Assembly (NCBI GenBank): GCA_012837525.1
Contig: DUQZ01000027.1
Location: forward strand, 1 to 64,000
Direction of reading: 5' to 3'
Source of the DNA: Clostridiales bacterium
GTDB taxonomy: Bacteria; Bacillota; Clostridia; Christensenellales; Aristaeellaceae
DNA: 64,000 nucleotides
The translations under genes and the position numbers were made by a program. This document shows, one piece after another, positions 1-17,205 of the stretch (position 1 is its first letter; every line of letters begins with the position of its first letter). The notes below the pieces were generated by a model that was not told the DNA's origin, searched no databases, and saw nothing but the letters and a program-made list of their open reading frames with translations.

Positions 1-543
1 GTCAAAATAGTCCGCGTACACCTCTTTTAAACTGGGCAGCTGCGCGTCAATCACCGCGCGTTTGGACAAGGCTTTGAAGTTTTTTATCTGATAGGACAAA
101 TTGGGCGCGCCCAGGGTTTCTACATACAGCACAAAGGCGTCAAAATCCCCGGCGATGTATTCGGCGGACAGGGTGGTCCACGCGCCCTTCTTCACGTCGT
201 GCCTGACAATATTGGTGTAGGTCTCGCGGCCGTCCTTGGTGTGCGCGGCGGAGAGGATGATGGTGGCGGTGTCCGCTTCGTCCTGATACACCTCCACCTC
301 CACCTCATACGCCCTGCCGGGAACAAGCTTGAAATCCCGCCCGGGGGAGTTCCAATCCTGCGTGCGGCCGGTAATTTTGATGCTGCCATCCACAACGGCA
401 AGTTCCGCGCCGCCGGTGGAGCGCGGGTACCAGCCGTCAAAATTAACGTCCAAAATGGACATGTGATAATCCTCCTCCTCACCAAGTACAAACACGGGAA
501 CCATCAGGCACAGGGCCAGAATCAGCGGGATGATCCGTTTCAT
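1..543 (-). CDS. Endo-1,4-beta-xylanase, CBM22-GH10 type (partial, C-terminus beyond window)
   Basis: The frame opens at an ATG at 543 and stays open to base 1, giving 181 residues. Residues 1-21 are a hydrophobic signal peptide (starts MKRIIPLILAL, ends near VLGEEE). Residues 25-160 read as a carbohydrate-binding beta-sandwich of the CBM22/CBM4_9 type (ILSAAHTKDGRETY, then LSYQIKNFKAL). The last residues (LPSLKEVYADYFD) match the typical start of a GH10 catalytic barrel. The product is probably a secreted xylanase cleaving beta-1,4-xylan. An AGGAGG site lies just upstream, and the gene follows the GH5 stop by 9 bases, so it is last or near last in the operon. The catalytic glutamates lie outside the window, so GH10 rests on a short match. 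Confidence 0.72.
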   Translation of the reverse strand, partial: MKRIIPLILALCLMVPVFVLGEEEDYHMSILDVNFDGWYPRSTGGAELAVVDGSIKITGRTQDWNSPGRDFKLVPGRAYEVEVEVYQDEADTATIILSAAHTKDGRETYTNIVRHDVKKGAWTTLSAEYIAGDFDAFVLYVETLGAPNLSYQIKNFKALSKRAVIDAQLPSLKEVYADYFD

Positions 544-552
544 GCTGCCCTC

Positions 553-1758
553 CTACCTTGAATACTGCACCAGGGCCTGGGCGATATCGGGGTATGTAAA
601 CGCAAAGGTCTTGCGGTCCAGGATACCAAAGACCTCCCCATCGCCGGAGAAGGCATGGTTGTCCCACCAGAAGCAGCTGAAACCGCGCGCGCGCGCCAGG
701 GCAACATACACGGCCGTAAAGTCCACACGTGATTGCAGGTTGCCGCCCTTGTCACGGCAGCCAAACTCCCCAATCACGATGGGGACGTTCTGCGGGGTGA
801 ACTTGTCATACAGCTGGTTCATGAACTTGGCAATTTCTTCCACATCAAAGGGGTTGTCCGCCTTGAAGTTGTCGCGGCTGCCCTTTTCCTTGGGGCTTTG
901 CAGCGCGAAATCATAGGGGGTATAGGCATGCACAGACAGGAGCAGCCTGTCGTTGACACCGCCGGTGTCCGCGGGCATCAAAAAGTCATCGTGCAGGCAG
1001 CCCTGGACGGAGGCGGCATAGCCAGGCACCAGCAGATAGCGGGAGGTGTTGTTGCCGCCCGTGCCGCGCACGATGTCCACAAACACCTGGTTTAACTCGT
1101 TAATGCACTGCACTGCCTCTGCAGACCGCGGATCGTTTGGGTCCAGGTTCCATTCAATGGGCGTGCCGGTCAGGCGCGGCTCGTTCATGCTTTCCATGAT
1201 CAGGTGCTCGTCATATTCCACAAACACAGGCGCCACCTGCTCCCAAATGGCGGTCAAATAGCGCTTGGAATTGTCCAGATGCGCCTTGTCAGGGTACAGA
1301 TAGTCCTTCTCAATATCGTGATGGGTGTTGATGATGACAAACAGGCTCTCCGCCAGCGCCATGTCAACAACTTCCTTCACCCGGTTGAGCCAGCGCTCGG
1401 AGATGCGGAAGTCATCCCCCGATACATGGTTGTGCCAGGAGATGGGGATGCGCACAGCTTTGAAGCCAGCGTCCTTTAAGGCTTTAAATACCCTGGCGTC
1501 CGTCTTCACGCCCACCCAGGCGCTTTCATAGTCCAGTTCGTCCTTTACATGGTGGGCGTTGCTGGCGTCAAAGGTGTTGCCCAAATTCCAGCCCACGCCC
1601 AGCTCCTCCACAAAGCGGAAGGAGTCCAAATCGGGCAGATCTTTTTTTGCGAATGTCAATTCCGGCAGCATGATTTCCTCCTCAGAAAGACCGGCTGCTA
1701 CCATGCTGGTCAGGAGCATCACAGCCAGCAGCATCAGAACAATGGGTTTGTTTTTCAT
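553..1758 (-). CDS. Secreted GH5 endoglucanase (cellulase)
   Basis: This 401-residue glycoside hydrolase family 5 protein hydrolyses beta-1,4-glucans or related beta-glucans outside the cell. Residues 1-23 form a signal peptide. The catalytic domain begins at GVGWNLGNTFDA (about 55-65). It shows RIPISWH (103-109), the acid/base motif ESMNEPRL with Glu193, HAYTPYDF (277-284) and the nucleophile motif VIGEFGC with Glu331. Both catalytic glutamates are present and the length is normal for a single-domain GH5 enzyme. There is no dockerin or surface-anchor motif, so the enzyme appears freely secreted. The upstream gene is a binding protein and the next is a GH10 xylanase, consistent with plant cell wall breakdown. 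Confidence 0.9.
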   Translation of the reverse strand: MKNKPIVLMLLAVMLLTSMVAAGLSEEEIMLPELTFAKKDLPDLDSFRFVEELGVGWNLGNTFDASNAHHVKDELDYESAWVGVKTDARVFKALKDAGFKAVRIPISWHNHVSGDDFRISERWLNRVKEVVDMALAESLFVIINTHHDIEKDYLYPDKAHLDNSKRYLTAIWEQVAPVFVEYDEHLIMESMNEPRLTGTPIEWNLDPNDPRSAEAVQCINELNQVFVDIVRGTGGNNTSRYLLVPGYAASVQGCLHDDFLMPADTGGVNDRLLLSVHAYTPYDFALQSPKEKGSRDNFKADNPFDVEEIAKFMNQLYDKFTPQNVPIVIGEFGCRDKGGNLQSRVDFTAVYVALARARGFSCFWWDNHAFSGDGEVFGILDRKTFAFTYPDIAQALVQYSR

Positions 1759-1788
1759 AACAGCCTCTCTTCTTTAAATGCTTCTTTT

Positions 1789-1818
1789 AAAAGCGGGATG
1801 GGGAAGTCCCCATCCCGC
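1789..1818 (-). terminator. Hairpin terminator after the binding-protein gene
   Basis: An 11-bp GC-rich stem (arm GCGGGATGGGG at 1793-1803, complement at 1808-1818) has a 4-base loop and is followed on the minus strand by TTTT. It sits between the binding-protein stop and the GH5 start, so it probably gives partial termination and lowers hydrolase expression relative to the transporter. Confidence 0.75.
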
Positions 1819-1839
1819 GGATATGAGTAACAGCTTGGT

Positions 1840-3219
1840 TTATTTCGCGTTCACGGCATCCAGGGCAGCCTGCCAGACGTTCTTGGATTCCTCCAGCTGC
1901 TCGCTGACAGTGCGCCAGCCGCCGCGGCCGTAGGTGTTCCAGTAGAACTGCTCACCCAGGCTGTAGCCGGGCACCAGGTCGCTTAGGAAGAAGGTGCCGT
2001 ATTTGGGATCGCGCATCATTTCGATGGTCTCATCCACCGCGCGGGAGTCGGAGAACATGGTGTAGTAGGTGGACTTCCAGTCGTCCGGATCGTCATAGCC
2101 GGGGGTGGGGTCGGTGTACAGGTCAAAGGCATAGGCGATCTTGTTGGCGCGCTCCGCGTCGTAGTTGGCGGGGATGATATAGCAGTTGTCAGAGTAGACG
2201 TTCTTGTAGGTGTCACCCTTGGGGCCCACGGGGAACATGACAAAGCCATATTCGTCCTTCATATTGTCCCGCAGGGTGGCCTTGAAGTAGTCCTGGTGGA
2301 TGGTCATGGCGACATCCCCGTTGATGAATGCGGCAAAGGTCCAATCCCAGTTGGCGCCTTCGGGCTGCGGCATTTCATAGGTCTGGGACATGTGCACGAT
2401 CCAGTTGGCGGCTTCCATGAAGGCGTCCTCACCAGTCGCGTTGTAGTACTTGCCGTTCTCGTCCTTTTTGACAAAGGCCGCGCCGTTTGAGGCCAGGGCC
2501 ACGTTCATCGCGCCGCCCTGCTGGCTGGCGGTGGCGTACACGTCAATCACGCCGTCGTTGTCGGTGTCACGGGTAATCTTCTTGCACAGCTCTTCATAGG
2601 CTTCCCAGGTCCAGGTGCCGTCCTTCTGCATGTCATACAGGCTCTCCGGGTCAATGCCGGCTTCTTCCAGCAGGCGCTTGTTAAACCAGATGCCGTCGCG
2701 GGGCTCAGAGGCGATGGCGCGCATGCCATAAATGCCGCCGTCCTTCTCCATGATTTCCAGGGTGTTCTTGTTCCATTTTTCCTCGGTGAAGTCAAAGGCG
2801 TCCAGCGTAGACAGGTCATAGAAGAAGCCATTGGCCATGGGGGTGGCCAGCACATCCGGGCGCATGACCAGCACGTAGTTCTCCGGCCCGCCGGTGGTGA
2901 CAAAATTGGCCAGGAAATCCGGGTTGTCGTCCCAGCCGGAGACCGCAATCTCTTTAATCTTGAAGTTGTAGGTCTCCTGAATCCACTCGCGGTATTCCGC
3001 AAGGGCTTCTTCCGCCGCGGTCTGGGGCTCCGCGGGCTCGCCGCTGGACCACCAGTCACCGATGATCACTTCGATGCCGCCAAGGTCCAGCGTGTTGCCG
3101 TCCTTGTCCTTGCGGATCTCGATCGTTTCGCCGGTAGAGAACTCATAGGTCTCTGCGGCAGCTGCCAGCAGGCCAAAGGCCATCGCCAGCGCCAGGAGCA
3201 TTGCCAGGGTCTTTTTCAT
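1840..3219 (-). CDS. Extracellular solute-binding protein, family 1 (sugar ABC importer)
   Basis: This 459-residue periplasmic-binding-protein-like receptor delivers an oligosaccharide to the permease pair encoded just upstream. Residues 1-22 are a signal peptide. The mature part has the two-lobe family 1 pattern (IEVIIGDWW near the N-terminus, SEPRDGIWFNKRLLEEAGID mid-protein, TIHQDYFKATLR later). It has no cysteine at the signal-peptide end (LLAAAAETY), so the usual lipobox is absent. That is unusual for a Gram-positive binding protein unless it is held by partners or the cell has an outer membrane. Position next to GH5 and GH10 genes suggests a beta-glucan or xylan oligomer ligand; the exact sugar cannot be read from sequence. 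Confidence 0.88.
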   Translation of the reverse strand: MKKTLAMLLALAMAFGLLAAAAETYEFSTGETIEIRKDKDGNTLDLGGIEVIIGDWWSSGEPAEPQTAAEEALAEYREWIQETYNFKIKEIAVSGWDDNPDFLANFVTTGGPENYVLVMRPDVLATPMANGFFYDLSTLDAFDFTEEKWNKNTLEIMEKDGGIYGMRAIASEPRDGIWFNKRLLEEAGIDPESLYDMQKDGTWTWEAYEELCKKITRDTDNDGVIDVYATASQQGGAMNVALASNGAAFVKKDENGKYYNATGEDAFMEAANWIVHMSQTYEMPQPEGANWDWTFAAFINGDVAMTIHQDYFKATLRDNMKDEYGFVMFPVGPKGDTYKNVYSDNCYIIPANYDAERANKIAYAFDLYTDPTPGYDDPDDWKSTYYTMFSDSRAVDETIEMMRDPKYGTFFLSDLVPGYSLGEQFYWNTYGRGGWRTVSEQLEESKNVWQAALDAVNAK

Positions 3220-3243
3220 GATGTTTCCTCCTTATTTTATATC

Positions 3244-3260
3244 ACCCATCTTTGATGGGT
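3244..3260 (-). promoter_or_regulatory. Intercistronic hairpin before the binding-protein gene
   Basis: A perfect 7-bp stem (ACCCATC / GATGGGT) with a TTT loop lies between the permease stop and the binding-protein ribosome site, without a downstream T-run. Such hairpins often protect processed mRNA ends and raise binding-protein output; here that is inference. Confidence 0.5.
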
Positions 3261-3272
3261 TAATATTCAAGT

Positions 3273-4280
3273 TTAGTCTTTCAGTCCGGTCGTGGTGATG
3301 GATTCAATGAAGAACCGTTGCGCGAACAAATACAGGATGAGCAGCGGCGTCACCACAATCAACACGCCGGTGGAGATCATCTGCATGGTGTAGCCCACAG
3401 AGGGCGTGGCGATGCCCAGCCGGGTGGAGACATAGGTGCGCAGGCTTTCCGCCAGGCCGGACAGGCGGATGGACAGATACTGCGTGTTGGCGGTGGGCAG
3501 GAACAAACGGGTGTAGAACACGTCCGTCCACTGCCACACAAAGGCAAACAGGAAGCAGCTGACCAAAATGGGCACAGCCTGGGGCAGCAGCACGCGGAAA
3601 AAGGTGCCCAGGGTGGACGCGCCGTCCACATAGGCTGCCTCCTCCAGGGAGTAGGGGATGGAGCGGAAATACTGACGGATCATGAAGATATACAGGCCGT
3701 TTTTCAAGCCCATGGCCGTCATGCTGAGCATCAGATACGGCAGCGATGAGCCCTTGAGGTTCAGCGGCGCGCCGTAGAGTTTGGTAAAGATGCCCAGGAT
3801 GTCAAAATACCGGAAGTGTAAATACAGGGAGGAGGAGATGGTCTGTGGCGGGATGACAATCACCAGCACCACGCAGGCAAACCAGAAGCGTTTAAGCGGG
3901 AACTCAAAGCGCGCGAAGCCGTAACCGGCCAGCGTGCAGGCGGTAATCTGCAAAAGGGCCGTCACCAGGGAGATGATGGTGGTGTTGATCAGGGAGGTGT
4001 CCAAGTTGAGCAGGTAGGCGGCCAGCGTGTAGTTTTCGGTCGTCAGGTTGCGCGGCACCACGATGATGGTGGTGTCATACAGGTCCTTTTCCATCATGAA
4101 GCTGACGGAAATCTTGTCCAATACCGGCTGCAAAATCAGGAAACACAGGCCAAACAGCATCAAAAAGCGCAGAATAGATCCAAACTTTTTCTTGCCCTCC
4201 TGGCGCAGCAGCAATCCGCCGGATTTTCGGTTGCGCGCCCAGAAGCCTTCCTGCTTGATGCCTGTCATGTGCTTATTCAT
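3273..4280 (-). CDS. Carbohydrate ABC transporter permease (UgpE/LplC type)
   Basis: This 335-residue inner-membrane subunit of a CUT1-type sugar importer has about six predicted membrane helices. It carries the conserved EAA loop that docks to the ATPase (EEAAYVDGASTLGTFFRV, then LPQAVPIL). A hydrophilic N-terminal tail of about 35 residues precedes the first helix, somewhat longer than average. Its start overlaps the end of the partner permease by 8 bases, so the two are translationally coupled. No ATP-binding subunit is encoded nearby; a shared MsmX-like ATPase elsewhere in the genome is the likely motor. Confidence 0.92.
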   Translation of the reverse strand: MNKHMTGIKQEGFWARNRKSGGLLLRQEGKKKFGSILRFLMLFGLCFLILQPVLDKISVSFMMEKDLYDTTIIVVPRNLTTENYTLAAYLLNLDTSLINTTIISLVTALLQITACTLAGYGFARFEFPLKRFWFACVVLVIVIPPQTISSSLYLHFRYFDILGIFTKLYGAPLNLKGSSLPYLMLSMTAMGLKNGLYIFMIRQYFRSIPYSLEEAAYVDGASTLGTFFRVLLPQAVPILVSCFLFAFVWQWTDVFYTRLFLPTANTQYLSIRLSGLAESLRTYVSTRLGIATPSVGYTMQMISTGVLIVVTPLLILYLFAQRFFIESITTTGLKD

Positions 4281-5181
4281 AGTGCTTCACCCCCTGCCTG
4301 ATGATGAAGGCGCTGATGGCGATCATGGTGATGGCCACCGCGAAATAAATCCAGGATAGGGCAGAGCTGAAGCCATATTTCAGGTTGATGAACATCTCCT
4401 CGTGAATCTTTTCCATGATCAGGTTGTCCGTCTTCATGAAGAAGTCGATGATGGTATAGATCATGTTGACAATCAGCAGCGGGCTGATGATAGGGAAGGT
4501 GACCATCCAGAAGCTCTCCCAGGCGGAGGAGCCTTCCATCTCCGCGGCCTCGTACATGCTGCGCGGGATGGTTTGCAGGCCTGACAAAAAGACCACAATC
4601 TGGATGCCCGAGGCCATCACGATGTCATACACCGCGGTGATGAGGTTGTTCACCACTTCCAGCGCCGGCGTGCCCACACCGGAGGCGGACAGCAAGCCAA
4701 AGAGGGCATTGCCAAAGTTGATGTTGTTGGATTGGGAAATCAGCTCCTTCATGCCGCTGATGAGGGAGTTGTCCGTCTCAATGCCCACCAGGACGCCGGA
4801 GGACAAAATCACCGGCAGGAAGAAGATGGCCCGCGCCAGCGCCCTGCCCTTGAACTTCTGGTTGAGCAACAGGGCAATCATAAAGGCAAGCACCATGGTG
4901 GCCAGGGAGTGCGTCACCATGCGCACCACCTCATCCACCAGCATCTGGTTAAAATCCGGGTCGATGGTGAAGGCGTAGATGTAGTTGGCCCAGCCTACAT
5001 TGGTTTTTACAATGCCGTGCTGCGCGCTTAAGCTGACGCTTTGAAAGCTCATGATGATGGACTGGATCATGGGCGCGACCATGAAGGCCAAAAAGCCAAT
5101 AATAAAAGGGGAGATGAACAGATAGCCCGAAATCGCGCGCCGTGTCCTGATGGTTCTGCGGCTTTTTCTCTTTATGCTCAC
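4273..5181 (-). CDS. Sugar ABC transporter permease (UgpA/LplB type)
   Basis: This 302-residue protein is the other membrane half of the CUT1 importer. A basic N-terminal stretch (KRKSRRTIRTRRA) precedes a membrane segment beginning GYLFISPFIIGFLAF, followed by five further hydrophobic segments. The EAA loop reads YEAAEMEGSSAWESFWMV. Translation starts at a GTG at 5181, placed 6-8 bases after GGAGGG and overlapping the DUF5696 stop in a GTGA arrangement. It pairs with the permease that follows and the binding protein after that. Confidence 0.92.
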   Translation of the reverse strand: MSIKRKSRRTIRTRRAISGYLFISPFIIGFLAFMVAPMIQSIIMSFQSVSLSAQHGIVKTNVGWANYIYAFTIDPDFNQMLVDEVVRMVTHSLATMVLAFMIALLLNQKFKGRALARAIFFLPVILSSGVLVGIETDNSLISGMKELISQSNNINFGNALFGLLSASGVGTPALEVVNNLITAVYDIVMASGIQIVVFLSGLQTIPRSMYEAAEMEGSSAWESFWMVTFPIISPLLIVNMIYTIIDFFMKTDNLIMEKIHEEMFINLKYGFSSALSWIYFAVAITMIAISAFIIRQGVKHYE

Positions 5182-7757
5182 GGCCTGCTCCCTCCTTCCA
5201 GTACATGATAGCTGCGGGCTGATACCACTTGCCCGTCCACGGTCTGGTCCTCATTGCCAAGGTTTACGGCGACGCGGGTGCCGTCCTCATAGGTGGTGAT
5301 GGTGACTTCGCCCTCCAGGCACTCATAGTTTGTGATGGCCTGGTGGAAGGTATGCCCCAGCGTTTGCTCATACTGTTTGATGATCTCCTTGGCTTCCTTC
5401 TCCCACAAGGCGTAGGAGGCGCCGAAGTATTCAGAATAGGTGGTGTCGTGCAGCACCAGCGGTTCCTCCGCCATGAACACGAAGGACAGCCCCGCGCCGC
5501 GCTGGGCGCTCAGCAAAATTTCCTGCTCCCAGTCGCCGGTTAAGTTGATGGGCTTGCCGGTGTATTCCACCAGGCCATGCAGCGCGATGTGGATGAAGGG
5601 CACGGCCTCGTCCATGATAAAATAAGGGACGCCGCGCAAATCAGTATTGGTGACCAGGTCCGCGTGCTCCAGCGCGTACAGGTTGCCGCCGCGGATCATC
5701 ACGCCCAGGCCCTCCTGCTTCACGCGCGCCTGCTCCGCGGTTTGCAAACCGGCTGCCTCATCCCGTGTGACGGTTTGCTTGGGGTTGTAGTCCGCGCTCA
5801 GCAGCGCGCCCACGTCTTCATAGCTGACGCCGTCCGCCTGATGGCGCTGGGCAGCAGTCGCCAGGTTGCGCATCATGTCAAGGGATACCTCAGGCTTGAG
5901 GAGGTAATACGGCTGGTCCTCCTCTTCCTGGGTGCCATACCAGACGTTGGAATATTTGTATAGACGGATGGCTTCCCGGGTGGTGAAGCGCGCGGCGTCG
6001 CGCAGGGGCAAAAAGCCTTCGATCACGCCGGAATCCAGGGCAAAGCTGGTGACGCCGTTTAAATATAGCCTGGCGCCGGTGTCCTTGACATCCTGTACCA
6101 TCTGCTCAAAATCACTGGCTGTGCCCAACTGGGAGATCAGCTTGTCCTTTTTGAGGATGGTCTGCTTGATGCCGCCGTTCATCCAGCCGGACAGACGTAC
6201 ATGCAGCCGGCTGTCGGTAGCGCTGGCGATATCCTTCACGATCCCGGCAGTCTGCTGGTAATTGGTCAGGGAAATGGGCAGGGAGACCGGCAGTCCGCCG
6301 CGCTGCTGCACCTTGTCAATGGCGCCGATGATTTCAACGGCAAGCGGCAGTCCCTTTGCGGTGAGCGGCACAAGCCCGGGATAGCGTTCCATCAAATAGG
6401 CGCGGTAGGCTTTGGCCAGGGTGACGTAATCATCCGTGGGCAAAAAGCGGTAGCGCTGGGTGATGGCGCCCTGGGGCAGGCCTTGCTCGTACATATAGAT
6501 GGTTTCGATGGTGCGGTCGGTCACATTGAAGGCGTCTGAGTGCAGCAGGTTGAAGCTGGCGCTGGCGGTGTTGTAGCTGTTGCCGCGCCCCGCGATGTCG
6601 GCGGAGAGGGAGGCATTGGCCGCGTGGTCCTCCATCATGCATAAAAAGGCGCTCCCATTGTTGACCATGGCGAACATGGGGAAGCGGGCGTTGGTTTCAT
6701 GCACCACGGCGCTGCGGTAGCTGGCGTAGTCCCAGCCATATACGTTGGCGAAATAGCCGTTTTGCCGGGTCTTGCCGTTGTTGAAGCGGATCAGCCCGCC
6801 GCCGCCCTCGGGCATGAGCATGTATCCCGTATCCTGGGTGCTGCCCGCGCCAAAATTGGGCAGGATACCAAGCCGGATGGGCGGGAAGTCGGCGGTGTAG
6901 TTGATGCTGTCAAAGGGCACTTTTACCAGGAAGTCCGGCCCGTCCAGGCGGTAGATGACGCTCACATTGAAGATGGCGGTCTTGTTGCTCAGGGCAGTGC
7001 CGGTATCCGCCTGGTCCTGCTGGTAGTCCTCATAGGTATAGCCGATGGACTCAAACAGGCCCTCAAACTCCTCCTTCAAGAAGTCCTTCACATTGTCGCG
7101 CAGGGCGTAGACGGCGCCTTCTTCCAGCTTGGGGTATTTATTAAACAACTCCTCCCGCTGGTTTTCCTTGATTTTGGCCGGGTCATACTTGCGGTAGCTG
7201 TCCAGCACCTTGCGGCTTTGCTGACGGGTGAGCCCTGACAAAAACGCGTCCATGCGCTCAACCAGGATGACCTCCGGGATAAAGTAGGCGCGCGTGATGC
7301 GGCCCAGCGTGTAATCCACCCGGATCTCGTCCTCATTGGCTGTGATTTCATAGACCTGGTTTTTGATGGAATATTCAAAATTGTCATACAGCGTGCGCAC
7401 GCCGTTGTCGGTGGAATAGGTGAGCGCCAGGGTGGACTGCAGCAGGTTCTTGCTGCCGGCAAGGGCGATGGGGTCGCGCGCGGCGTCCTCTGGCACCGCG
7501 CGCCAGACGTGGTCATCCGCCTTGGTGGTGATAGTGAAATGCGTGGTGTCCGCATCCAACTCCAGCTTTAAGTGCTCGTTTTCCAGCACATGCACGGCGC
7601 CGGGCTCTTCCTTGTAAAAGGCAGCGGAAATGTCCGTGTCACCGTCTGTGGTATCCGTGCGCCCATACAAAGCCCAGCCGAGCACGGCGATGCTGGCAAT
7701 GACCAGCAGCGCGAACACAGCTTGCAGGATTCGTTTTTTCGCGGACGACTTCTTCAC
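5178..7757 (-). CDS. DUF5696 protein, membrane-anchored, glycosidase-like architecture
   Basis: This 859-residue protein has a single N-terminal membrane anchor (residues 9-30, starting ILQAVFALLVIASIAVLGW) and a large extracellular part. It matches my recollection of the DUF5696 family, whose biochemical role I do not know. Residues about 50-450 look like a beta-sandwich with helical insertions, about 460-760 contain alternating beta/alpha segments suggestive of a barrel (DSRLHVRLSGWMNGG, ARLYLNGVTSFALD, DGVSYEDVGALL), and the last 60 form a beta-rich end. This order resembles large glycoside hydrolases such as GH101-like enzymes, but I cannot name catalytic residues. It lies between the Yip1 protein and a permease pair, with 4- to 8-base spacing or overlap. 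Confidence 0.75.
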   Translation of the reverse strand: MKKSSAKKRILQAVFALLVIASIAVLGWALYGRTDTTDGDTDISAAFYKEEPGAVHVLENEHLKLELDADTTHFTITTKADDHVWRAVPEDAARDPIALAGSKNLLQSTLALTYSTDNGVRTLYDNFEYSIKNQVYEITANEDEIRVDYTLGRITRAYFIPEVILVERMDAFLSGLTRQQSRKVLDSYRKYDPAKIKENQREELFNKYPKLEEGAVYALRDNVKDFLKEEFEGLFESIGYTYEDYQQDQADTGTALSNKTAIFNVSVIYRLDGPDFLVKVPFDSINYTADFPPIRLGILPNFGAGSTQDTGYMLMPEGGGGLIRFNNGKTRQNGYFANVYGWDYASYRSAVVHETNARFPMFAMVNNGSAFLCMMEDHAANASLSADIAGRGNSYNTASASFNLLHSDAFNVTDRTIETIYMYEQGLPQGAITQRYRFLPTDDYVTLAKAYRAYLMERYPGLVPLTAKGLPLAVEIIGAIDKVQQRGGLPVSLPISLTNYQQTAGIVKDIASATDSRLHVRLSGWMNGGIKQTILKKDKLISQLGTASDFEQMVQDVKDTGARLYLNGVTSFALDSGVIEGFLPLRDAARFTTREAIRLYKYSNVWYGTQEEEDQPYYLLKPEVSLDMMRNLATAAQRHQADGVSYEDVGALLSADYNPKQTVTRDEAAGLQTAEQARVKQEGLGVMIRGGNLYALEHADLVTNTDLRGVPYFIMDEAVPFIHIALHGLVEYTGKPINLTGDWEQEILLSAQRGAGLSFVFMAEEPLVLHDTTYSEYFGASYALWEKEAKEIIKQYEQTLGHTFHQAITNYECLEGEVTITTYEDGTRVAVNLGNEDQTVDGQVVSARSYHVLEGGSRP

Positions 7758-7765
7758 AGGGCCTC

Positions 7766-8449
7766 CTAATACAACCTAAAGGATAGTTCTTTATACAGGG
7801 ACACGATGTAGGCAATGCCGTCTGATATCAAGGAGAAGAAGAGCAGCATCAAAAAGATGATGACCAGCATGCCAAACAAACTCATCACCATGAACACCAG
7901 GGTCTTGCCCAGGGAGTAATCATGGATCATCATCATGGCGACCACAATCAACAGGCCGCACCAAAGCAGGGAGATATTGGACAGCACCGTATAAAAGGCG
8001 CCTTCCTCAATAGTGACCACGTTGCTCAGGAGGATGAGAGGCAGTTGAATCAAGACATAGGGGGTGAGGGCATAGGCCGTGCCCGTATAGATATCCTTCA
8101 TGCGCCCTTTGCCCTCAAACAGGGTGGTTAAACTCCAGTTGGCAACACACCAGATCAAAAGCGGCAGCAGGATGGTCAAAAACTCAATAAACACATTCAC
8201 CCGGGCCCAGTACACGCGGATAAACAGGAAGGAGGTGTACTGCAGGCGCAGGATGCGGGTAAACAGCGCCAGAAAGACGATGAAATTGGCGGCGGCCATG
8301 CTGCCGCGGCGCTCCCGCGTCAAATCCCAAAAGCCGTCAAAGGGGTGGATGATCACATGCAGCGCAAAGCGCAGCGTGCGGAAAAATTCCTGCCACCACG
8401 CGCGGCTTTTGATCTTGGCGAGGAAGGAGGTATTCACAAATTCGCTCAT
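7766..8449 (-). CDS. Yip1-domain integral membrane protein
   Basis: This 227-residue protein has five predicted membrane helices in the Yip1 arrangement: a long N-terminal hydrophilic part with FHVIIHPFDGFWDL-like wording (here HPFDGFWDLTRERRGS, residues about 37-52), then helices around 55-75, 88-105, 125-145, 155-180 and 185-210. Bacterial Yip1 proteins are poorly understood, and the family name comes from eukaryotic vesicle-traffic proteins. Its start overlaps the upstream NHL-repeat gene by 4 bases and its stop is 8 bases before the DUF5696 gene. This suggests the three act together at the membrane, possibly as a complex with the flanking ABC permeases. Specific role unknown. Confidence 0.75.
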   Translation of the reverse strand: MSEFVNTSFLAKIKSRAWWQEFFRTLRFALHVIIHPFDGFWDLTRERRGSMAAANFIVFLALFTRILRLQYTSFLFIRVYWARVNVFIEFLTILLPLLIWCVANWSLTTLFEGKGRMKDIYTGTAYALTPYVLIQLPLILLSNVVTIEEGAFYTVLSNISLLWCGLLIVVAMMMIHDYSLGKTLVFMVMSLFGMLVIIFLMLLFFSLISDGIAYIVSLYKELSFRLY

Positions 8450-9957
8450 GCTTCGCGCAGCTCCTCTCTGACTTTTTTAATCCGGCCAATCAACAGCGGC
8501 AGGGCCAGGGCCGCGGCCAGGATCACAAAAATCCAGCCGATGTTCTCCTCAACCCAGATCTTGCGCTGCTCCTGGAATGCCTTGGAATAGTTGACCTCAT
8601 CGTTGGCCAGTTTAAAATACCGCATGGCTTCTTTATAGTTTTCCTCGCGCAAAAGCGCTCTGCCAACGCCAATATAGGCCAGCTCAAAATTGCCGTTTAA
8701 CTGCAGAACCCGCTGCCAGGTGTCCGCCGAGGCCCTGTACTCCCCGCGCTGGTATTGCTCCGTTGCCTGGTAGATCAGGCGTCCGTACTCCGTCGGCTCA
8801 AAAATGGTAACCGAGCCCTCCACCGAGTCCAGCACCATCAGTTCATAGCCGGCATGCTCAATGGACGCGGCGCTTCTGAAGAAGCCGGCCATGTTGCCCG
8901 ATCCGCCAAAGGCCCAGAGGTTTCGCCCCTGGTCGTCATAGGCAAACATGCGCCCGCGCGTTTTGTCCAGCGCCACATAGACCTCGTTGTCCAGCACCGT
9001 GATGTCAGAAAACTTTGACGGGCCGCTATAGCCGCCGGCGGTGCCCCAGAACAGCTCCCCAATTGGCGGGAACTCCCCGTTTTTCACCAGGATATCAGAG
9101 CCAATGGCGTTCAGCTTGCGGATGGGCCGTGCGTTGTCCCACAGCAGGTCATACTCCTGGAAGGTGGTGGTGACGGAGTAGATAAAGCCTTTTTTATCGA
9201 TATAGATGTTGTCAAACTCCGTCGGTACAAAGGAGGCCTGCTGCTCCCGCTGCGCGCGGGTGGACAAAAGGCGCCAGATCTGGTCGGTGATGGAATAGGT
9301 GACGGGCATCGCGCCGATAAAGCCGGTGAACACGCCGTCGTTTTCAAACTTAACCATGCCCTTGTTCACGTTGCGCACCAGCACAAAGGCGCGCCCGGTC
9401 ACATCCGCCACCACCCGGGTGGGCAAAAAAGCCAGGCTTTGGTCAAAGGTCTCATCCGTGGGCTTGGTCAAGGTGAGCAGCAGGTTTAAATCACTGTCCA
9501 GTTTCACCACGCGCTGGTTGGCGGTGTCGCAGATGAAGTAATCGCCCTCACGGGTCACAAAGATGTCGCTGGGGGAGGAGAAGCGCTGCTCCTCGCCATT
9601 TTCCATAAAGTGGTCGATGATGCGCTCCAGCTCATAGCTGCCGCGCGCAGCCTTCAGCTGTAAGATGCGGTGGTTGCCGTTGTCCACAATGTACAGCCTG
9701 CTGCCGTGCATAAACAGGCTGCCAGGTGTCAGCATGCTTTTTTCAAGGCCCAGGCTGCTGGAGTTGATTACCTTCTTAACCCGGTAGGCATCCGGCGCGT
9801 AGCGCAGATCACCCCAGTAGTCAAAGGTATAGGAGTACTGGTACTCATAGCCCACCTTGGCCTGGGCCGCGGGCGCCAGCACGGATAACAGCAGGACGCA
9901 CAAACACAGCGCGGCCAACAAGCGCGCGGGCTTTGTACTTTGCGGTGTCTTTTTCAT
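8446..9957 (-). CDS. NHL-repeat beta-propeller protein with TPR and C-terminal membrane anchor
   Basis: I choose the ATG at 9957 because AGGAGG lies 4-5 bases before it; an ATG 15 bases upstream has no such site. The 503-residue product has a signal peptide (ending PAAQAKVGY). Six or so NHL-like blades follow, for example LYIVDNGNHRILQL, DYFICDTANQRVVKLD and IYIDKKGFIYSV. A short TPR segment (about 400-460, YQRGEYRASADTWQRVL and AYIGVGRALLREENYKEA) comes next, then a C-terminal helix starting WIFVILAAALALPLLIG. Propellers of this type bind glycans or proteins. With the Yip1 and DUF5696 genes it forms the unknown core of the locus. Confidence 0.8.
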   Translation of the reverse strand: MKKTPQSTKPARLLAALCLCVLLLSVLAPAAQAKVGYEYQYSYTFDYWGDLRYAPDAYRVKKVINSSSLGLEKSMLTPGSLFMHGSRLYIVDNGNHRILQLKAARGSYELERIIDHFMENGEEQRFSSPSDIFVTREGDYFICDTANQRVVKLDSDLNLLLTLTKPTDETFDQSLAFLPTRVVADVTGRAFVLVRNVNKGMVKFENDGVFTGFIGAMPVTYSITDQIWRLLSTRAQREQQASFVPTEFDNIYIDKKGFIYSVTTTFQEYDLLWDNARPIRKLNAIGSDILVKNGEFPPIGELFWGTAGGYSGPSKFSDITVLDNEVYVALDKTRGRMFAYDDQGRNLWAFGGSGNMAGFFRSAASIEHAGYELMVLDSVEGSVTIFEPTEYGRLIYQATEQYQRGEYRASADTWQRVLQLNGNFELAYIGVGRALLREENYKEAMRYFKLANDEVNYSKAFQEQRKIWVEENIGWIFVILAAALALPLLIGRIKKVREELREA

Positions 9958-9975
9958 GCGTCCTCCTCTCATGTT

Positions 9976-10863
9976 TTACTCCTTGATGCCGGAGCTGGCC
10001 ATCGTCTCCAGAATCTGCGTCTGGGACAGGATAAAGATGGTGATGGGCACCAGCATCATGATGACCGTGACGGCGGCTGCCTGCCCGGTGCGGGCAATGC
10101 CGCCGGCCTGGATTTGCTGCAGGGCGTAGGTGAGGGTTTTCTTGGCCTCTGAATAAATGACCGTCTGCGCGCGCACGTTCCACAGCCCCTGGACCGAGAA
10201 GATAATCAGGGTAAGCCAGGCGGGCTTCACATTGGGCATCACAATCTGCCAGAAGATACGCCACTCGGACGCGCCGTCCACCTTGGCGGATTCCAGCAGC
10301 GCCATGGGGATGCTTTCCATAAACTGCTTCATCAAAAACAGGCCAATGGGCGCGGCAAACGCGGGCAGGATGACCGACCAGGAGGTGTCCACCAGGTGCA
10401 GGCGCGTAAGCATTAAATAGTTGGGGATGCCGGTCACATAGCCGGAGAACATCAGCGCCACCACCACCAGGCGGAAAAAGGCCTTGCTGCCCGGGAAGTC
10501 ATACTTGGCCAGCACGAAGGCGGCCATGGAGGCCACCATCAAATGCCCCGCCGTGCCCAGCACGGTAATGAGCACCGTATTGGTTAAATAGCGGCCAAAG
10601 GGCACCCAGGACTGGCCCATGGTGACCACCAGGTCCGCGAAATTGTCAAAGGTGGGGTTGACCGGCAGCAGGCGCGGGGGAAAGCGGAACAGTTCATCCA
10701 GCGGCTTGAGGGATGCCGCCAGCGCGAACACCAGCGGGTAGACCATGATGAGGGCGGTCAGCCCCAGCATTAAATAAATCAGGATGTCCCCGCCGCGGGA
10801 ACGGTTGGGCTGGCGGCGGTGGGCAATATTGGTCACCTTTTGTGTCGTCGTCTTTTTCTGCAT
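9976..10863 (-). CDS. Carbohydrate ABC transporter permease (second importer)
   Basis: This is a 295-residue CUT1 permease of the UgpE type. I start at the ATG at 10863, which begins just after the upstream TGA. The TTG at 10875 would lie only a base after the AGGAGG site. Six hydrophobic segments are visible and the EAA loop reads LLESAKVDGASEWRIFWQIV, slightly divergent with Ser for the second Ala. A basic N-terminal region rich in Arg and Thr precedes the first helix. It pairs with the permease gene directly upstream and with the large membrane-anchored binding protein. Confidence 0.9.
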   Translation of the reverse strand: MQKKTTTQKVTNIAHRRQPNRSRGGDILIYLMLGLTALIMVYPLVFALAASLKPLDELFRFPPRLLPVNPTFDNFADLVVTMGQSWVPFGRYLTNTVLITVLGTAGHLMVASMAAFVLAKYDFPGSKAFFRLVVVALMFSGYVTGIPNYLMLTRLHLVDTSWSVILPAFAAPIGLFLMKQFMESIPMALLESAKVDGASEWRIFWQIVMPNVKPAWLTLIIFSVQGLWNVRAQTVIYSEAKKTLTYALQQIQAGGIARTGQAAAVTVIMMLVPITIFILSQTQILETMASSGIKE

Positions 10864-10864
10864 A

Positions 10865-11800
10865 TCAGGTACCAATCCTCCTGAGCATGCTCTGGATGGC
10901 CTTGTTGGTTAAGATCATCGTGAGGAAGAGCAGCGTCGCGATGGCGGAGGCATAGCCCATGTCAAAGCGGGTGTAGCCGTAGTCAAACAAATGCGTCACC
11001 ACTGTGTGCGCGGCGTAATCTGTACTGGGATAGCCGCACAGGGCCATGGTCTGGTCCGCCACAGAGAAGGCGGCGGTGATGGACATGACCGCGCCAAAGA
11101 GCAGCATCGGGCGCATGTTGGGCAAGGTGATGTAATACAGTTCCTGCCAGCGGTTGCGCACGCCGTCCACATAGCCGGCTTCGTACTGCGCCTGGTCCAC
11201 ACCCTTCAGTCCCGCCACAAAGGCTAAAAAGCCTGTGCCCATGCTCATCCACAGCAGCACCAGCACCACGACGGTCATCATGTACTTGGGGTCTGTCAGC
11301 CACAGGATGGGCGCGTTGATGATGCCGGTGCGCACTAAAAAGGAGTTGAGGTAGCCGTAGACATCCCCGCGGAAGATGATGCCAAAGATAAAATAGGCAT
11401 TGCCCGCAATGGACGGCGCGTAGAACACAACCACCGCGACAGAGCGCAGCCAGCGCGGCAGTTCATTGATAAACCAGGCAAACATAAAGGACAGGATATA
11501 GCCAATGGGCCCGGTGATGACCGCGATGATGAAGGTGTTTTTGACCGAAATCAGGAAGATGTCATCCTGCAGCACAAGGTTGATGTAGTTTTTAAGGCCA
11601 ATCCACCTGGCCGGCTCCAGGATGTTGTAATAGGTAAAGCTGTAGCGGATGGAGGTAAACATGGGCAGGATGTAGAAGGTGACAAACAGCACCGCAAAGG
11701 GGAGCAGGAAGAGGTAGCAGACATACATCTGCTTTGCCCTGTACCAGGCGTCTGACAGGTTCCTTTTTCTAAGGTTGATATATTTGTTCATCGTGCTCAT
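10865..11800 (-). CDS. Sugar ABC transporter permease (second importer)
   Basis: This 311-residue UgpA-type permease has a first membrane segment YLFLLPFAVLFVTFYILPMF and five more. The cytoplasmic EAA-like loop reads YEAGYVDGVRNRWQELYYI, with Gly replacing the second Ala of the canonical motif; the same change occurs in many LplB-like permeases. The ATG overlaps the upstream binding-protein TGA by 4 bases. Two complete permease pairs in one operon imply either two importers for related sugars or a larger assembly with the genes between them. Confidence 0.9.
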   Translation of the reverse strand: MSTMNKYINLRKRNLSDAWYRAKQMYVCYLFLLPFAVLFVTFYILPMFTSIRYSFTYYNILEPARWIGLKNYINLVLQDDIFLISVKNTFIIAVITGPIGYILSFMFAWFINELPRWLRSVAVVVFYAPSIAGNAYFIFGIIFRGDVYGYLNSFLVRTGIINAPILWLTDPKYMMTVVVLVLLWMSMGTGFLAFVAGLKGVDQAQYEAGYVDGVRNRWQELYYITLPNMRPMLLFGAVMSITAAFSVADQTMALCGYPSTDYAAHTVVTHLFDYGYTRFDMGYASAIATLLFLTMILTNKAIQSMLRRIGT

Positions 11801-14709
11801 GGTTTTGCTCCTTGGGGTACGGGGAGACCAAACTCAAGCCGTTTGTTGGTGATCTCCTTGTCAATCAGCCGGGCGTAGTCCAGGATGGTCTCCCGCGGGT
11901 CGACCCGGCGGTTGATGACCTTGCGCACAGCATTGGTGATGTTGCGCGCGGTGTAGTAGCCGCCCGCGACCTCAGGGAAGCCGACAGCGTCCTGCATGCC
12001 TTCTTCCAGAATCAGCAGGTGCTCAGCGCTCCAGGACAATTCGCGCAGCGCCTGGATATTGGCAGTCGGGTAGCGCGCGGAGGCGCCCAGGACGGCCTCG
12101 ATCTCCCGGCCAAAGCGCACCTGCGCGTCCTTGGACACCCACCACTTCATAAACTCCCAGGCCTGGTTGCGCACATGCTCATCCGGGTTGGCGATCATCA
12201 TGCAGCTGGCGCCGGCGGAGTGGGCGGAGCGGTCCAGCACCTGCTGGCCCTGCTCGTTGCGGGTATAGGTGCCCGGGATGAGGGCAAAATCCCACAGCCC
12301 GCGGATTTCGGGTGCTGAGACCGTCAGGAAGTTGTAGGTGGTAAAGTCCGCGATGCCAAGGGGCATTTCGCCCGAGCGGAAGCGGCTGATAAAGTCAAAT
12401 TCCTGCGGCAGGCCGTAATCGGTGTACAGCGCGGTGTAAAAATCAAAGGCCAGCACCGCGGGCTCTTCCTTGAGCAGCGTTTCCGTAGCGTCCTCGTTAT
12501 AAATCTTGCCGCCGTTTTGGTAGATCATCGCGTAGAGGGTGTTCTGGTTGGGCGCCGCGATGCTGGGATAGGGGATGCCGACGGACATATTGTTGCCCTG
12601 GATGGTGGGCAGCATGCCAATCAAATCCTGCCAGGTTTGCGGGGCGGTGAGGCCGTATTCGGACAGGATGTCCTCCCGGTAAAACAGCACGCTGATAACC
12701 TGCGTCTCCGGCAGGCCGTATACGCCGCCGTCCCAGGTGAGGGCGGAATAGGCGCTGGGGCGGAACTGGGCAATGACCTCCTCAAAATCGGTGAACTGGG
12801 TCAAATCCTCCGCCGCATTGCGCAGCGCGTAGTTGACCGGGTTCCACGAATCGGTGGAGACCACCAGATCCGGTCCGTTGCCGGCGACCACCGCGCCCAA
12901 CAGGGCGGTCGGGTCCACCAGCTTGATGTTCACCTTGATGCCGCTCATGGGCGTAAAGCTGTCATCCACCATGGTCTTGAGCACCGTGGACTGATCCCGT
13001 CCGGTAAGCAGCCATACATTCAGCGCCGCTTCATCCGTGTACACATCGCCCAGCGCGTCATAATCCACAAAATAAGAAATGGCGGTGGACTTGCCCTCGT
13101 GCAACAGGCCGGTCAAGACGTTCTCCGCCTGGGGCTTGGGCCGCATGTCCGCGCTGTGGATGTACAGGCTGTCAATGTCCAGCTTGATCTCGCTCATCGC
13201 CTGCATGGCGGTGCCAAGGGCGGTGATGTTGTCCTTGAAGTTGACAAAGGAGCTGGTGATGCGGTAGGGGTCCTTGGCAAACTCTTCCAGCTGGGTTGCC
13301 AGGGTCTGCGCGGCGGCAATTTTGTCGGATTTCTGGCCGGTGTAGGCAGTGGCTTCATCCACAATTTTGTACAGCCGGCTGCTTTCCAAGGCCATCGCCT
13401 CAATCACCTCCGGGTACACCTGGTGCAGGTTGTAGTCACGGAAGGTATCCGGGTTCACACCGGTCAAGACCAGAATTTTCCGGTAAATCTGGTTAAGCCG
13501 GAAGACACTGTCATCCAGCTGCGTCAAGATATGGCCCATGCCGCCCAAGGTCGCCTCCAGGCGGATGGTGTGCCTGCCCTTGCTTAAATAGAAGGAATAG
13601 GGCGTGCCTTCCTCATCGCCCAGGGTTTTCATCTCCCAGGCGTTCTGGAACTCAAAGGGGATTTCGGACAGCGCATCAAAGGGCACCTTGCCGTCTATCA
13701 ACAGGATGCGGCTGGATTTGCTGCCGCGCTGGTAGCGCTGACGGCCTTTGATGGTCATTTGATAAAAGCCGTCCTCCTCAATGTCCACATCCCACTGGAT
13801 CCATTGGCCGGGAATGCGCCAGGGGTCGCCGCCAATGTAGTTGAGCACCACACGGCTTAAATCACCCGGCTGGGTGGCGGGGGAGGAGCGGTCATAGCGG
13901 GCATACAGGGAGGGGCTGGAGCGCAGCTGCGCCTGCTCGCCCGGCAGGTCCAGCAAAATGCCGCTGACAGCCGCGCCTTTTTGCTCGTGTTCCGCCTTGT
14001 AGCTTGCGTAATCCGGCAATACCTGCACAGGGTTGACGGACAAGCTGCGCATCAGCACCGGCTCATTGGTGGCCACCAGGCGGATGCGGTTTACGCCTTG
14101 TTGCAGATAAAAGCGGTAGGGCGCGTTCTCATAGCCCATGGCGTCCTTGAAATCCGCCGTCTGCCAGCCAAAGACCTCTGTCTGCGCCGGGCGGATCTGG
14201 TTGCCCTGGTTGTCGGTCCGCACGGGGCCGGCATCCGTCCACATGCGGGTAAAGATAAGGGTGTCCGCGCCCAGGAAGGGCACTTCACCGTTGATGTACA
14301 GCTTGCGCTCAATATCCACCCCGCGGGAGGGCACCGTCAAAAAGGTCATCTCCAGCTGGTACATGCCCGCTTCCTCAACAGACACCGTCCAGGTGATGTC
14401 AGAGCCTTCGCCGGCAAACAGTGCGGGTAAGCCATCCTCCTGGCGCACCTCAACCAGGCCTGTGGCCTCATAGTCCATCAGGTCAATGTCATAGCGCGCG
14501 TTGATATTTTTTTGGTGTTCGTGTTCTTTTAAGTACAGGGCATAGGTGTTTTCACGGCCGATGCCGATGATGGACTGCTCAAAATCCACCCCTTCGTATT
14601 TTTCCGCGAAGGTGCCGCCGCTGCCGGAGAGGGTAACCCAGGCGATGATACCGCCAATAAGAAGGAACGCGATAAGATAACCCGGCCATTTGTCACGGAT
14701 TCTGTACAC
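11797..14709 (-). CDS. Membrane-anchored multidomain solute-binding protein
   Basis: I place the start at the GTG at 14709, nine bases after AGAGGAGG, rather than the GTG 27 bases upstream that precedes that site. The 970-residue product has a basic N-terminus and one membrane segment (YLIAFLLIGGIIAWVTL). Two similar sandwich-like modules follow. Each has an ITWTVSVEEAGMYQLEM or IQWDVDIEEDGFYQMTI strand and a later PYRFYLQQGVNRIRLVA or PYSFYLSKGRHTIRLEA strand. A helical region spans about 400-520, and a family 1 solute-binding domain runs from about 550 to the end (LPETQVISVLFYREDIL, AWEFMKWWVSKDAQVRFG). Fusing carbohydrate-binding-like modules and a membrane helix to a binding protein is uncommon and suggests capture of a polymer or long oligosaccharide at the cell surface. 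It is first in the operon. Confidence 0.82.
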   Translation of the reverse strand: MYRIRDKWPGYLIAFLLIGGIIAWVTLSGSGGTFAEKYEGVDFEQSIIGIGRENTYALYLKEHEHQKNINARYDIDLMDYEATGLVEVRQEDGLPALFAGEGSDITWTVSVEEAGMYQLEMTFLTVPSRGVDIERKLYINGEVPFLGADTLIFTRMWTDAGPVRTDNQGNQIRPAQTEVFGWQTADFKDAMGYENAPYRFYLQQGVNRIRLVATNEPVLMRSLSVNPVQVLPDYASYKAEHEQKGAAVSGILLDLPGEQAQLRSSPSLYARYDRSSPATQPGDLSRVVLNYIGGDPWRIPGQWIQWDVDIEEDGFYQMTIKGRQRYQRGSKSSRILLIDGKVPFDALSEIPFEFQNAWEMKTLGDEEGTPYSFYLSKGRHTIRLEATLGGMGHILTQLDDSVFRLNQIYRKILVLTGVNPDTFRDYNLHQVYPEVIEAMALESSRLYKIVDEATAYTGQKSDKIAAAQTLATQLEEFAKDPYRITSSFVNFKDNITALGTAMQAMSEIKLDIDSLYIHSADMRPKPQAENVLTGLLHEGKSTAISYFVDYDALGDVYTDEAALNVWLLTGRDQSTVLKTMVDDSFTPMSGIKVNIKLVDPTALLGAVVAGNGPDLVVSTDSWNPVNYALRNAAEDLTQFTDFEEVIAQFRPSAYSALTWDGGVYGLPETQVISVLFYREDILSEYGLTAPQTWQDLIGMLPTIQGNNMSVGIPYPSIAAPNQNTLYAMIYQNGGKIYNEDATETLLKEEPAVLAFDFYTALYTDYGLPQEFDFISRFRSGEMPLGIADFTTYNFLTVSAPEIRGLWDFALIPGTYTRNEQGQQVLDRSAHSAGASCMMIANPDEHVRNQAWEFMKWWVSKDAQVRFGREIEAVLGASARYPTANIQALRELSWSAEHLLILEEGMQDAVGFPEVAGGYYTARNITNAVRKVINRRVDPRETILDYARLIDKEITNKRLEFGLPVPQGAKP

Positions 14710-14901
14710 GGATCCCTTCCTCCTCTCTGCGGTCACGACCGTCAGCCTTGTAGTTTACTTGTGAATTTTCATGAATTTGCCAAACGATTATCTGTTGAAT
14801 TTCTTGCGGAAAATCAAGATGAATCATGCCGGAATCATCAGAAACGCCTCAAAATGTAACCTTCAGTCGAACCCGGGACAATTAATCGTTTAATATCACA
14901 T

Positions 14902-14932
14902 ATAATATTCCAAATTTTTTTCGCTTTGTCAA
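14902..14932 (-). promoter_or_regulatory. Sigma-A promoter of the large carbohydrate operon
   Basis: On the minus strand TTGACA (14932-14927) is followed, 19 bases on, by TATTAT (14907-14902); AATATT at 17 bases is an alternative -10. The leader to the GTG at 14709 is nearly 190 bases. It contains copies of AAACGATTA (14782-14790 and, inverted, 14883-14891) that could be operators. No riboswitch fold was recognised in the rest of 14710-14901. Confidence 0.6.
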
Positions 14933-14936
14933 GCAT

Positions 14937-14966
14937 AAAAAACTGGCAGATTTTACAATCTGCCAG
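14937..14966 (-). terminator. Intrinsic terminator after the cyclase-family gene
   Basis: A perfect 10-bp stem (CTGGCAGATT at 14943-14952, complement at 14957-14966) has a 4-base loop and is followed on the minus strand by six T. It ends the GH65-zwf-cyclase unit and insulates the carbohydrate operon promoter just downstream. Confidence 0.92.
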
Positions 14967-14989
14967 CAATACGTAAAAACGAACAAATA

Positions 14990-15625
14990 TTAAATTAAAT
15001 CAGACAAATTATCAATCAGAACGGCGCGGGCGGGGGCGCCTTCCGCGTTGTTGATCAAAATCGGCAGCGCGATCAAGGTGTATTCGCCAGCCGGCACATC
15101 GGCCAGCGCCAGGCCTTCCAGGATGATGATGTCGTTTTTCAAAAAGGCCAAATGGGTGGGGTGGCCGGGTTGGTCACGCTCCACCCCCAAGGCGTCCGTG
15201 CCAATGCCCTTGATGCCAATATCCGCCAGGTACTCAGCTGCATCCTTTCGGATATAGACGAAATCCGCGTCACCCACCCGTCCGGCAGAGTTCTGGCTTC
15301 TCAGCAGGACAAAATCATCTTTGCCAATGGGTAGATTGATTACATCATCCCTGGTGATCGCGTCCTGCGCGTGGCTTAGGTCAAACAGCTTGCACCGGGT
15401 AATCAGTTTCTCAAGCGGCATGTCCTCCATTGTCCAGCCGTCCTGCATCATATGGCGCGGGGTATCCAGGTGGGTGCCGGTGTGCAGGTTCATGGTGATG
15501 CTGGTCTCATTGATGGCGTCCTTTGGCATCTGCTTGTCCAGGTGGTGGGTGGGGCGTTTTCCCTCCCTGCCGCGGTACACCGGCATATCGCGGTGAATGG
15601 GCATGGAGATATCATAAATTGTCAT
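14990..15625 (-). CDS. Cyclase-family metal-dependent hydrolase (kynurenine formamidase-like)
   Basis: This 211-residue protein of the cyclase family (PF04199) carries the metal-binding motif HTGTHLDTPRH, with His48, His52, Asp54 and His58. N-terminal wording TIYDISMPIHRDMPVYRG is typical. Members hydrolyse N-formylkynurenine, isatin or other amides and lactones; the substrate cannot be read here. It overlaps the zwf stop by 4 bases and is last in a unit that also has a GH65 phosphorylase. No tryptophan-degradation partner is nearby, so a lactone or other carbohydrate-linked substrate is possible. Confidence 0.85.
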   Translation of the reverse strand: MTIYDISMPIHRDMPVYRGREGKRPTHHLDKQMPKDAINETSITMNLHTGTHLDTPRHMMQDGWTMEDMPLEKLITRCKLFDLSHAQDAITRDDVINLPIGKDDFVLLRSQNSAGRVGDADFVYIRKDAAEYLADIGIKGIGTDALGVERDQPGHPTHLAFLKNDIIILEGLALADVPAGEYTLIALPILINNAEGAPARAVLIDNLSDLI

Positions 15626-17169: not shown

Positions 17170-17205
17170 GTTCACTCCTGATTGTGTGTGGTATACAGCA
17201 ATACC

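Follow-up and report, generated by a model that had tools for sequence, protein, structure and literature searches.

A conserved cassette with two sugar-importer modules around an NHL, Yip1 and DUF5696 core in Bacillota

The window analysed here is a 64,000-nucleotide stretch of a Clostridiales bacterium contig (DUQZ01000027.1). One end of it carries a single minus-strand unit that runs from position 14736 down to base 1, where the contig stops, and thus from the gene for the solute-binding protein SBPA to a truncated CBM-GH10 gene. The named genes, including two permease pairs and two binding proteins, all lie on the minus strand where the first-pass annotation had placed them. The features are given below from upstream to downstream.

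14942..14967, minus strand: terminator-like hairpin (consensus match only), dividing the unit from the upstream cyclase gene
14904..14932, minus strand: promoter-like TTGACA-17-AATATT (consensus match only), upstream of SBPA
11797..14736, minus strand: SBPA, 979 aa; TM anchor, two beta-sandwich (CBM-like) domains, helical linker, solute-binding domain
10865..11800, minus strand: PA1, CUT1-type permease with EAA motif
9976..10875, minus strand: PA2, CUT1-type permease with EAA motif
8446..9972, minus strand: NHL-TPR, NHL propeller and TPR; N-terminal signal/anchor, C-terminal TM segment
7766..8449, minus strand: Yip1, Yip1-domain membrane protein with about five TM segments
5178..7757, minus strand: DUF5696, N-terminal membrane anchor and GH129-fold ectodomain
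4273..5181, minus strand: PB1, first gene of the second CUT1-type permease pair, EAA motif kept
3273..4280, minus strand: PB2, second gene of the second CUT1-type permease pair, EAA motif kept
1840..3219, minus strand: SBPB, solute-binding protein with signal peptide, less conserved
553..1758, minus strand: GH5, secreted glycoside hydrolase, in the substrate-variable part
1..543, minus strand: start of the CBM-GH10 gene, first 181 codons, CBM_4_9 domain only, cut by the contig end

Spacing is tight from SBPA to PB2, ranging from an 11-base overlap to an 8-base gap, and widens downstream of PB2, with 53 bases before SBPB and 81 before GH5. The tight spacing or overlap (4 to 18 bases) once described throughout the unit is thus confined to the SBPA-to-PB2 part. 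Two secreted hydrolases, a GH5 and a CBM22-GH10, had also been named. The GH5 is present; of the second enzyme only the CBM_4_9 domain lies in the window, and the GH10 catalytic domain is absent because the contig stops at base 1. The predicted GH10 identity of the cut gene is well supported by a congener (L055), which has an identical gene order and a complete CBM_4_9-GH10 protein at the corresponding place. Upstream on the same strand, beyond the terminator-like hairpin, positions 14990-19470 carry cyclase, glucose-6-phosphate dehydrogenase-like and GH65 genes.

The transporter parts are recognizable throughout. SBPA and SBPB both give Pfam-type matches to SBP_bac_1, and SBPA also matches SBP_bac_8, as solute-binding proteins do. 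In the AlphaFold model of SBPA (pLDDT 88.7), a TM helix at the N terminus is followed by two beta-sandwiches, a helical stretch and the solute-binding domain. The nearest solved binding proteins bind sugars; by profile the nearest is Lin1841, which binds beta-1,2-glucooligosaccharides. All four permeases carry an EAA-type motif, giving each transporter the two BPD_transp_1 permeases of a CUT1 importer; PB1 scores slightly below the Pfam cut-off (24.8 versus 26.4 bits). No ATPase gene is present in the window cassette, and the window genome has two ugpC/msmX-type genes above cut-off elsewhere. By simple hydropathy, NHL-TPR has a hydrophobic stretch at its N terminus and a TM segment at its C terminus, Yip1 crosses the membrane about five times, and DUF5696 has an N-terminal anchor. 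At two other loci (L187 and L168), five tandem SBPB-like genes follow PB2, as if binding proteins had multiplied.

For comparison across genomes, segments of at most 20 kb surrounding DUF5696 genes were taken from 100 relatives, together with 80 named loci that had been located through a motif (Paenibacillus, Cohnella, Amphibacillus, Lederbergia, Halalkalibacter, Butyrivibrio, Acetivibrio and uncultured Clostridia); genome contigs were searched with a family profile built from the motif-rich subset of the DUF5696 alignment. The order SBPA-PA1-PA2-NHL-Yip1-DUF5696-PB1-PB2 is kept, for the genes present, in 138/138 usable DUF5696 loci from relatives, Paenibacillaceae, Lachnospiraceae and others, and this conservation is beyond chance. 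All eight core genes are found in 114 of the 120 loci with enough flank. Core genes missing from the first gene calls had left gene-sized gaps; the absences were artefacts of overlap filtering, and the genes were then rescued. In an even draw of the phylum, a strong DUF5696 match occurs in 37 of 398 genomes, and 20 further loci from such a draw mostly agree with the order. Four loci (L189, L190, L194 and L195) are swapped, with the NHL-DUF5696-PB half ahead of the SBPA-PA half, and the two modules stay together even when permuted. Cassettes occur in several Bacillota classes, their proteins can be as little as about 30% identical, and a single genome of a relative can carry up to four full-length copies. 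Nearly every full-length DUF5696 match whose surroundings were read lies inside a cassette. The neighbourhood of NHL, Yip1 and DUF5696 with both permease pairs, usually beside glycosidases, is thus found in very many genomes, the opposite of the scattered arrangement that would have spoken against the first-pass annotation. A complete cassette with a GH43 gene is also carried by the 243-kb Butyrivibrio fibrisolvens plasmid pNP243 (L196, 6013-22071), so the cassette can sit on an extrachromosomal element.

The association holds when it is approached from the other genes. In a reverse test, the 100 relatives were searched separately with NHL-Yip1 and SBPA profiles. Full DUF5696 matches in these genomes adjoin NHL in 55 of 57 cases and SBPA in 53 of 57; 55 of the 57 strong NHL-Yip1 places and 53 of the 59 strong SBPA places adjoin a full DUF5696 gene. 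Searches seeded with DUF5696, NHL and SBPA converge on nearly the same places, although very distant NHL homologues may be missed because the seed profiles came from loci found with DUF5696. The contig runs out at both NHL exceptions (G022:C78 and G037:C177) and at one SBPA exception (G014:C339); a further exception, G007:C74, is cut close to its end. At L199 (G025:C12, 8491-11993), SBPA is followed directly by a PB1 fragment and PB2, and the locus looks like a decayed cassette with an internal deletion. L198 (G009:C58) is a rare case in which only part of the A module is present; it contains SBPA, a diverged permease, GH43 and GH127, and NHL, Yip1 and DUF5696 were not detected there.

Within the core, NHL and Yip1 are fused into a single protein in 39 of 154 loci. 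The fusions fall into seven separate clades and include the second locus of the window genome itself (L082). No other core fusion was seen among the 154 loci. Large DUF5696 open reading frames (up to 1159 aa) were considered as core-protein fusions and rejected; only NHL-Yip1 fusions exist. Pairwise-identity correlations between core genes are 0.88-0.95, values that are uncorrected for species phylogeny, and such mirror-tree correlations therefore carry little weight alone. Conservation is uneven along the cassette. Over the same 132 loci, mean identity is 56% for PA1 and 54% for PA2 versus 42% for PB1 and 43% for PB2; it is 41% for SBPA (132 loci) versus 30% for SBPB (94 loci), and 37% for NHL and 31% for DUF5696 (132 loci). 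This unevenness suggests a constant A module (SBPA/PA1/PA2) and a B module that may be adapted to substrate.

The three middle genes had been described as lacking known function. The core proteins are indeed without an assigned role, but DUF5696 is not a blank, because it is a GH129-fold protein. Its model (pLDDT 88.9) matches GH129 over the whole length, with Z scores of 28.2 to NagBb (568 residues aligned, rmsd 3.9) and 26.7 to ZgGH129. In a Foldseek search with the model, ranks 1-11 are all GH129 and the next relatives are GH101 and GH36-like enzymes, and the family profile matches GH129 PDB chains with an E-value of 1e-12. Structure matches past GH129 and GH101, mostly GH13-type barrels, were discarded, as only the barrel was covered.

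The catalytic residues are a different matter. In NagBb, we take D435 to be the nucleophile and E478 the acid/base of the catalytic pair; D330 was considered first as nucleophile and dropped. MAFFT and hhalign agree that the window protein has Asp at the D435 position and Arg at the E478 position, so that the GH129 pair is incomplete. Among 155 DUF5696 members, the D435 position is Asp in 99 and the E478 position is Glu in 24. The exact D/E pair occurs in 13 of them and Asp with any acidic residue in 26, which leaves the pair incomplete in at least 129. Both Caldicellulosiruptor-type loci examined have Ser at the nucleophile position, and three GH129-like controls from the same genome set keep both catalytic residues. 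Because the pair is incomplete, DUF5696 is predicted to be mostly a binding protein rather than an enzyme, one that would bind glycan instead of cutting it. Some DUF5696 proteins may be active enzymes, since 26 of the 155 keep Asp and an acidic residue. Three matches to the DUF5696 model outside any cassette (L089, L090 and L091; 565-612 aa) have both GH129 catalytic residues and are probably true glycosidases. In the open literature searched, we found no mention of DUF5696 and nothing useful on Yip1 combined with NHL, permease or Paenibacillus.

CAZyme families were assigned from a single representative of each cluster. On that basis, 78 of 126 loci have one or more typed CAZymes linked to the cassette, in 25 combinations; the 78 is a lower bound because of untyped neighbours and cut loci, and in the remaining 48 the sequence read contained no CAZyme belonging to a typed cluster. 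The typed families are GH43, GH10, GH26, GH5, GH2, GH29, GH51, GH53, GH9, GH38, GH16 and CBM65, and with such variety the cassette is not restricted to xylan or beta-glucan. The tie to those two glycans made in the first-pass annotation was accordingly too narrow, GH26, GH53, GH51, GH38, GH2 and GH29 genes being linked as well. In the window organism, GH10 and GH5 point to xylan together with beta-glucan or mannan oligomers as the probable substrates. An SBPB-like protein is found in 112 of the 126 loci, and a LacI, AraC or histidine kinase gene lies nearby in 43. On a P. cellulosilyticus plasmid (L197, 5879-25199), three LLM-class flavin oxidoreductases and two SBPs follow the cassette, hydrolases are absent, and the gene immediately upstream encodes a ugpC ATPase. 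The substrate there may not be an ordinary glycan.

The best explanation of these observations, on which we are evenly divided, is a membrane-anchored surface platform for capture coupled to double import of polysaccharide fragments. SBPA, NHL-TPR with its TM segment, Yip1 and the TM-anchored DUF5696 would form a membrane-bound extracellular platform that holds oligosaccharides released by the neighbouring secreted hydrolases, DUF5696 serving mainly as a glycan-binding, non-hydrolytic relative of GH129. PA1/PA2 with SBPA and PB1/PB2 with SBPB would carry the oligosaccharides across the membrane, both importers being driven by a common MsmK/MsmX-type ATPase encoded elsewhere. It is in publications on C. 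bescii that induction by xylan and the requirement for a shared ATPase are documented. The earlier proposal of a surface system that handles glycan fragments before import fits both the topology and the xylan induction reported in one of them (PMC8579813). In this model the proteins would touch each other; the conserved order might also reflect co-regulation. A bolder form of the proposal, which we offer only tentatively, would place all eight proteins in one supercomplex, in which NHL-TPR-Yip1 as scaffold and a GH129 receptor without catalysis would physically connect the two ABC importers. Such a complex would pair a constant SBPA/PA1/PA2 with a substrate-adapted DUF5696/PB1/PB2/SBPB and would be a Gram-positive counterpart of SusCD-type capture.

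Another reading is the one published as annotation for C. bescii: two CUT1 transporters that are independent of each other, serving for instance xylo- and arabinoxylo-oligosaccharides, share their operon with an accessory glycosidase (DUF5696 as an active GH129-type exo-enzyme) and an unrelated membrane protein. The labels XloEFG, AxoFGE, GH129 and X of that work (PMC8579813) agree with it, as do the separate SBP for each permease pair and a GH129 fold with the nucleophile Asp in 99 of 155 members. Independent transporters, however, are expected to occur apart, yet modules A and B are nearly always together, and almost all complete loci include the NHL and Yip1 genes. An active enzyme likewise sits poorly with an acid/base Glu in only 24 of 155 members and the Ser at the nucleophile position of two Caldicellulosiruptor-type loci, and we regard this reading as possible but doubtful.

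TPR and NHL are protein-interaction modules, and NHL-Yip1-DUF5696 might instead be an assembly or sensing unit in which NHL-TPR-Yip1 organises or signals to the transporters and DUF5696 is a ligand receptor, with no direct movement of sugar. A receptor-like pseudo-enzyme is compatible with that role, and 43 of 126 loci have a LacI, AraC or histidine kinase gene close by; yet these are dedicated regulators already beside many cassettes, and the analysis of NHL, Yip1 and DUF5696 revealed no cytoplasmic signalling domain. We regard an assembly or sensing unit as unlikely. It is very improbable that the conserved order is simply a block inherited from a common ancestor without shared function. High pairwise-identity correlations, uncorrected for species phylogeny, are expected under simple co-inheritance, but the spread over several Bacillota classes at identities down to about 30%, the up to four full-length copies per relative genome, the recurrent NHL-Yip1 fusion and the permutation of modules all argue otherwise. 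If the core is the capture platform that we favour, it would explain how many Gram-positive plant-fibre degraders of gut, rumen, soil and hot environments retain the oligosaccharides that they release. The cassette is widespread and very conserved; it would represent a poorly understood route for uptake of plant fibre fragments, and it is a genetic target in tractable hosts (C. bescii and Paenibacillus).

The operon itself is not new. It is known from Caldicellulosiruptor: the xylan degradation locus (XDL) of C. bescii is the same cassette, and the earlier label "undescribed" went too far. That operon, xloEFG-X-GH129-axoFGE-xynF-xynE-xynD-xyn10A-xynX-xynB (Athe_0174-0185), is annotated as two CUT1 transporters (XloEFG and AxoFGE) with CAZymes; it is xylan-induced, has XynR and AraR as presumed regulators, and relies on a shared MsmK, whose deletion impairs growth on oligo- and polysaccharides (PMC8579813). 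XynR binds an XDL operator (PMC12285236). In C. saccharolyticus, the counterpart locus Csac_2404-2420, XDL transporter genes included, is biomass-responsive, and Csac_2411 is a 1347-aa GH43-CBM22-GH43-CBM6 protein (PMC5658599). Crystalline cellulose was the only substrate on which Paenibacillus O199 showed GH129 and CBM35 proteins (PMC4867992), and these proteins may be DUF5696 and SBPA. None of the cited Caldicellulosiruptor and Paenibacillus O199 publications, in the parts available, treats the core as one unit. The generality of the cassette, its fixed core across the phylum, its two-module behaviour, the recurrent NHL-Yip1 fusion and the incomplete catalytic pair appear to be new in the open literature searched.

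The window matches the C. bescii locus, mapped by its published description only, both in the order of the genes and in their domain types. The window has the XDL order SBP-perm-perm-X-GH129-perm-perm(-SBP) with downstream xylanases, the GH10 being predicted from the congener. Two loci that look like Caldicellulosiruptor by gene content (L176 and L177) read SBPA-PA1-PA2-NHL+Yip1-DUF5696-PB1-PB2, and in L177 PB2 is followed by a 1347-aa GH43-CBM-GH43-CBM6 enzyme like Csac_2411 and then by a 2 x CBM-GH10 enzyme like Csac_2410. NHL and Yip1 are fused in both of these loci, whereas they are separate in the window, which differs from the C. bescii locus in having GH5 and CBM-GH10 and belongs to a distant member of the phylum. 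DUF5696 shares a whole-length fold with the GH129 alpha-N-acetylgalactosaminidase NagBb and the 3,6-anhydro-D-galactosidase ZgGH129, but identity is about 15%, a membrane anchor is added, and the catalytic pair is mostly not kept. Like CUT1 (MalFGK-type) importers with a shared MsmX/MsmK ATPase, the cassette has EAA permease pairs and SBPs and is without an ATPase gene in the window; unlike them, it sets two permease pairs in fixed order around an extra three-protein core, and its SBPA is membrane-anchored with two added CBM-like domains. With the SusCD systems of Bacteroidetes it shares, by analogy only, surface capture, import and linked hydrolases, whereas its parts are not homologous to theirs, its envelope is Gram-positive, and its import is ATP-driven.
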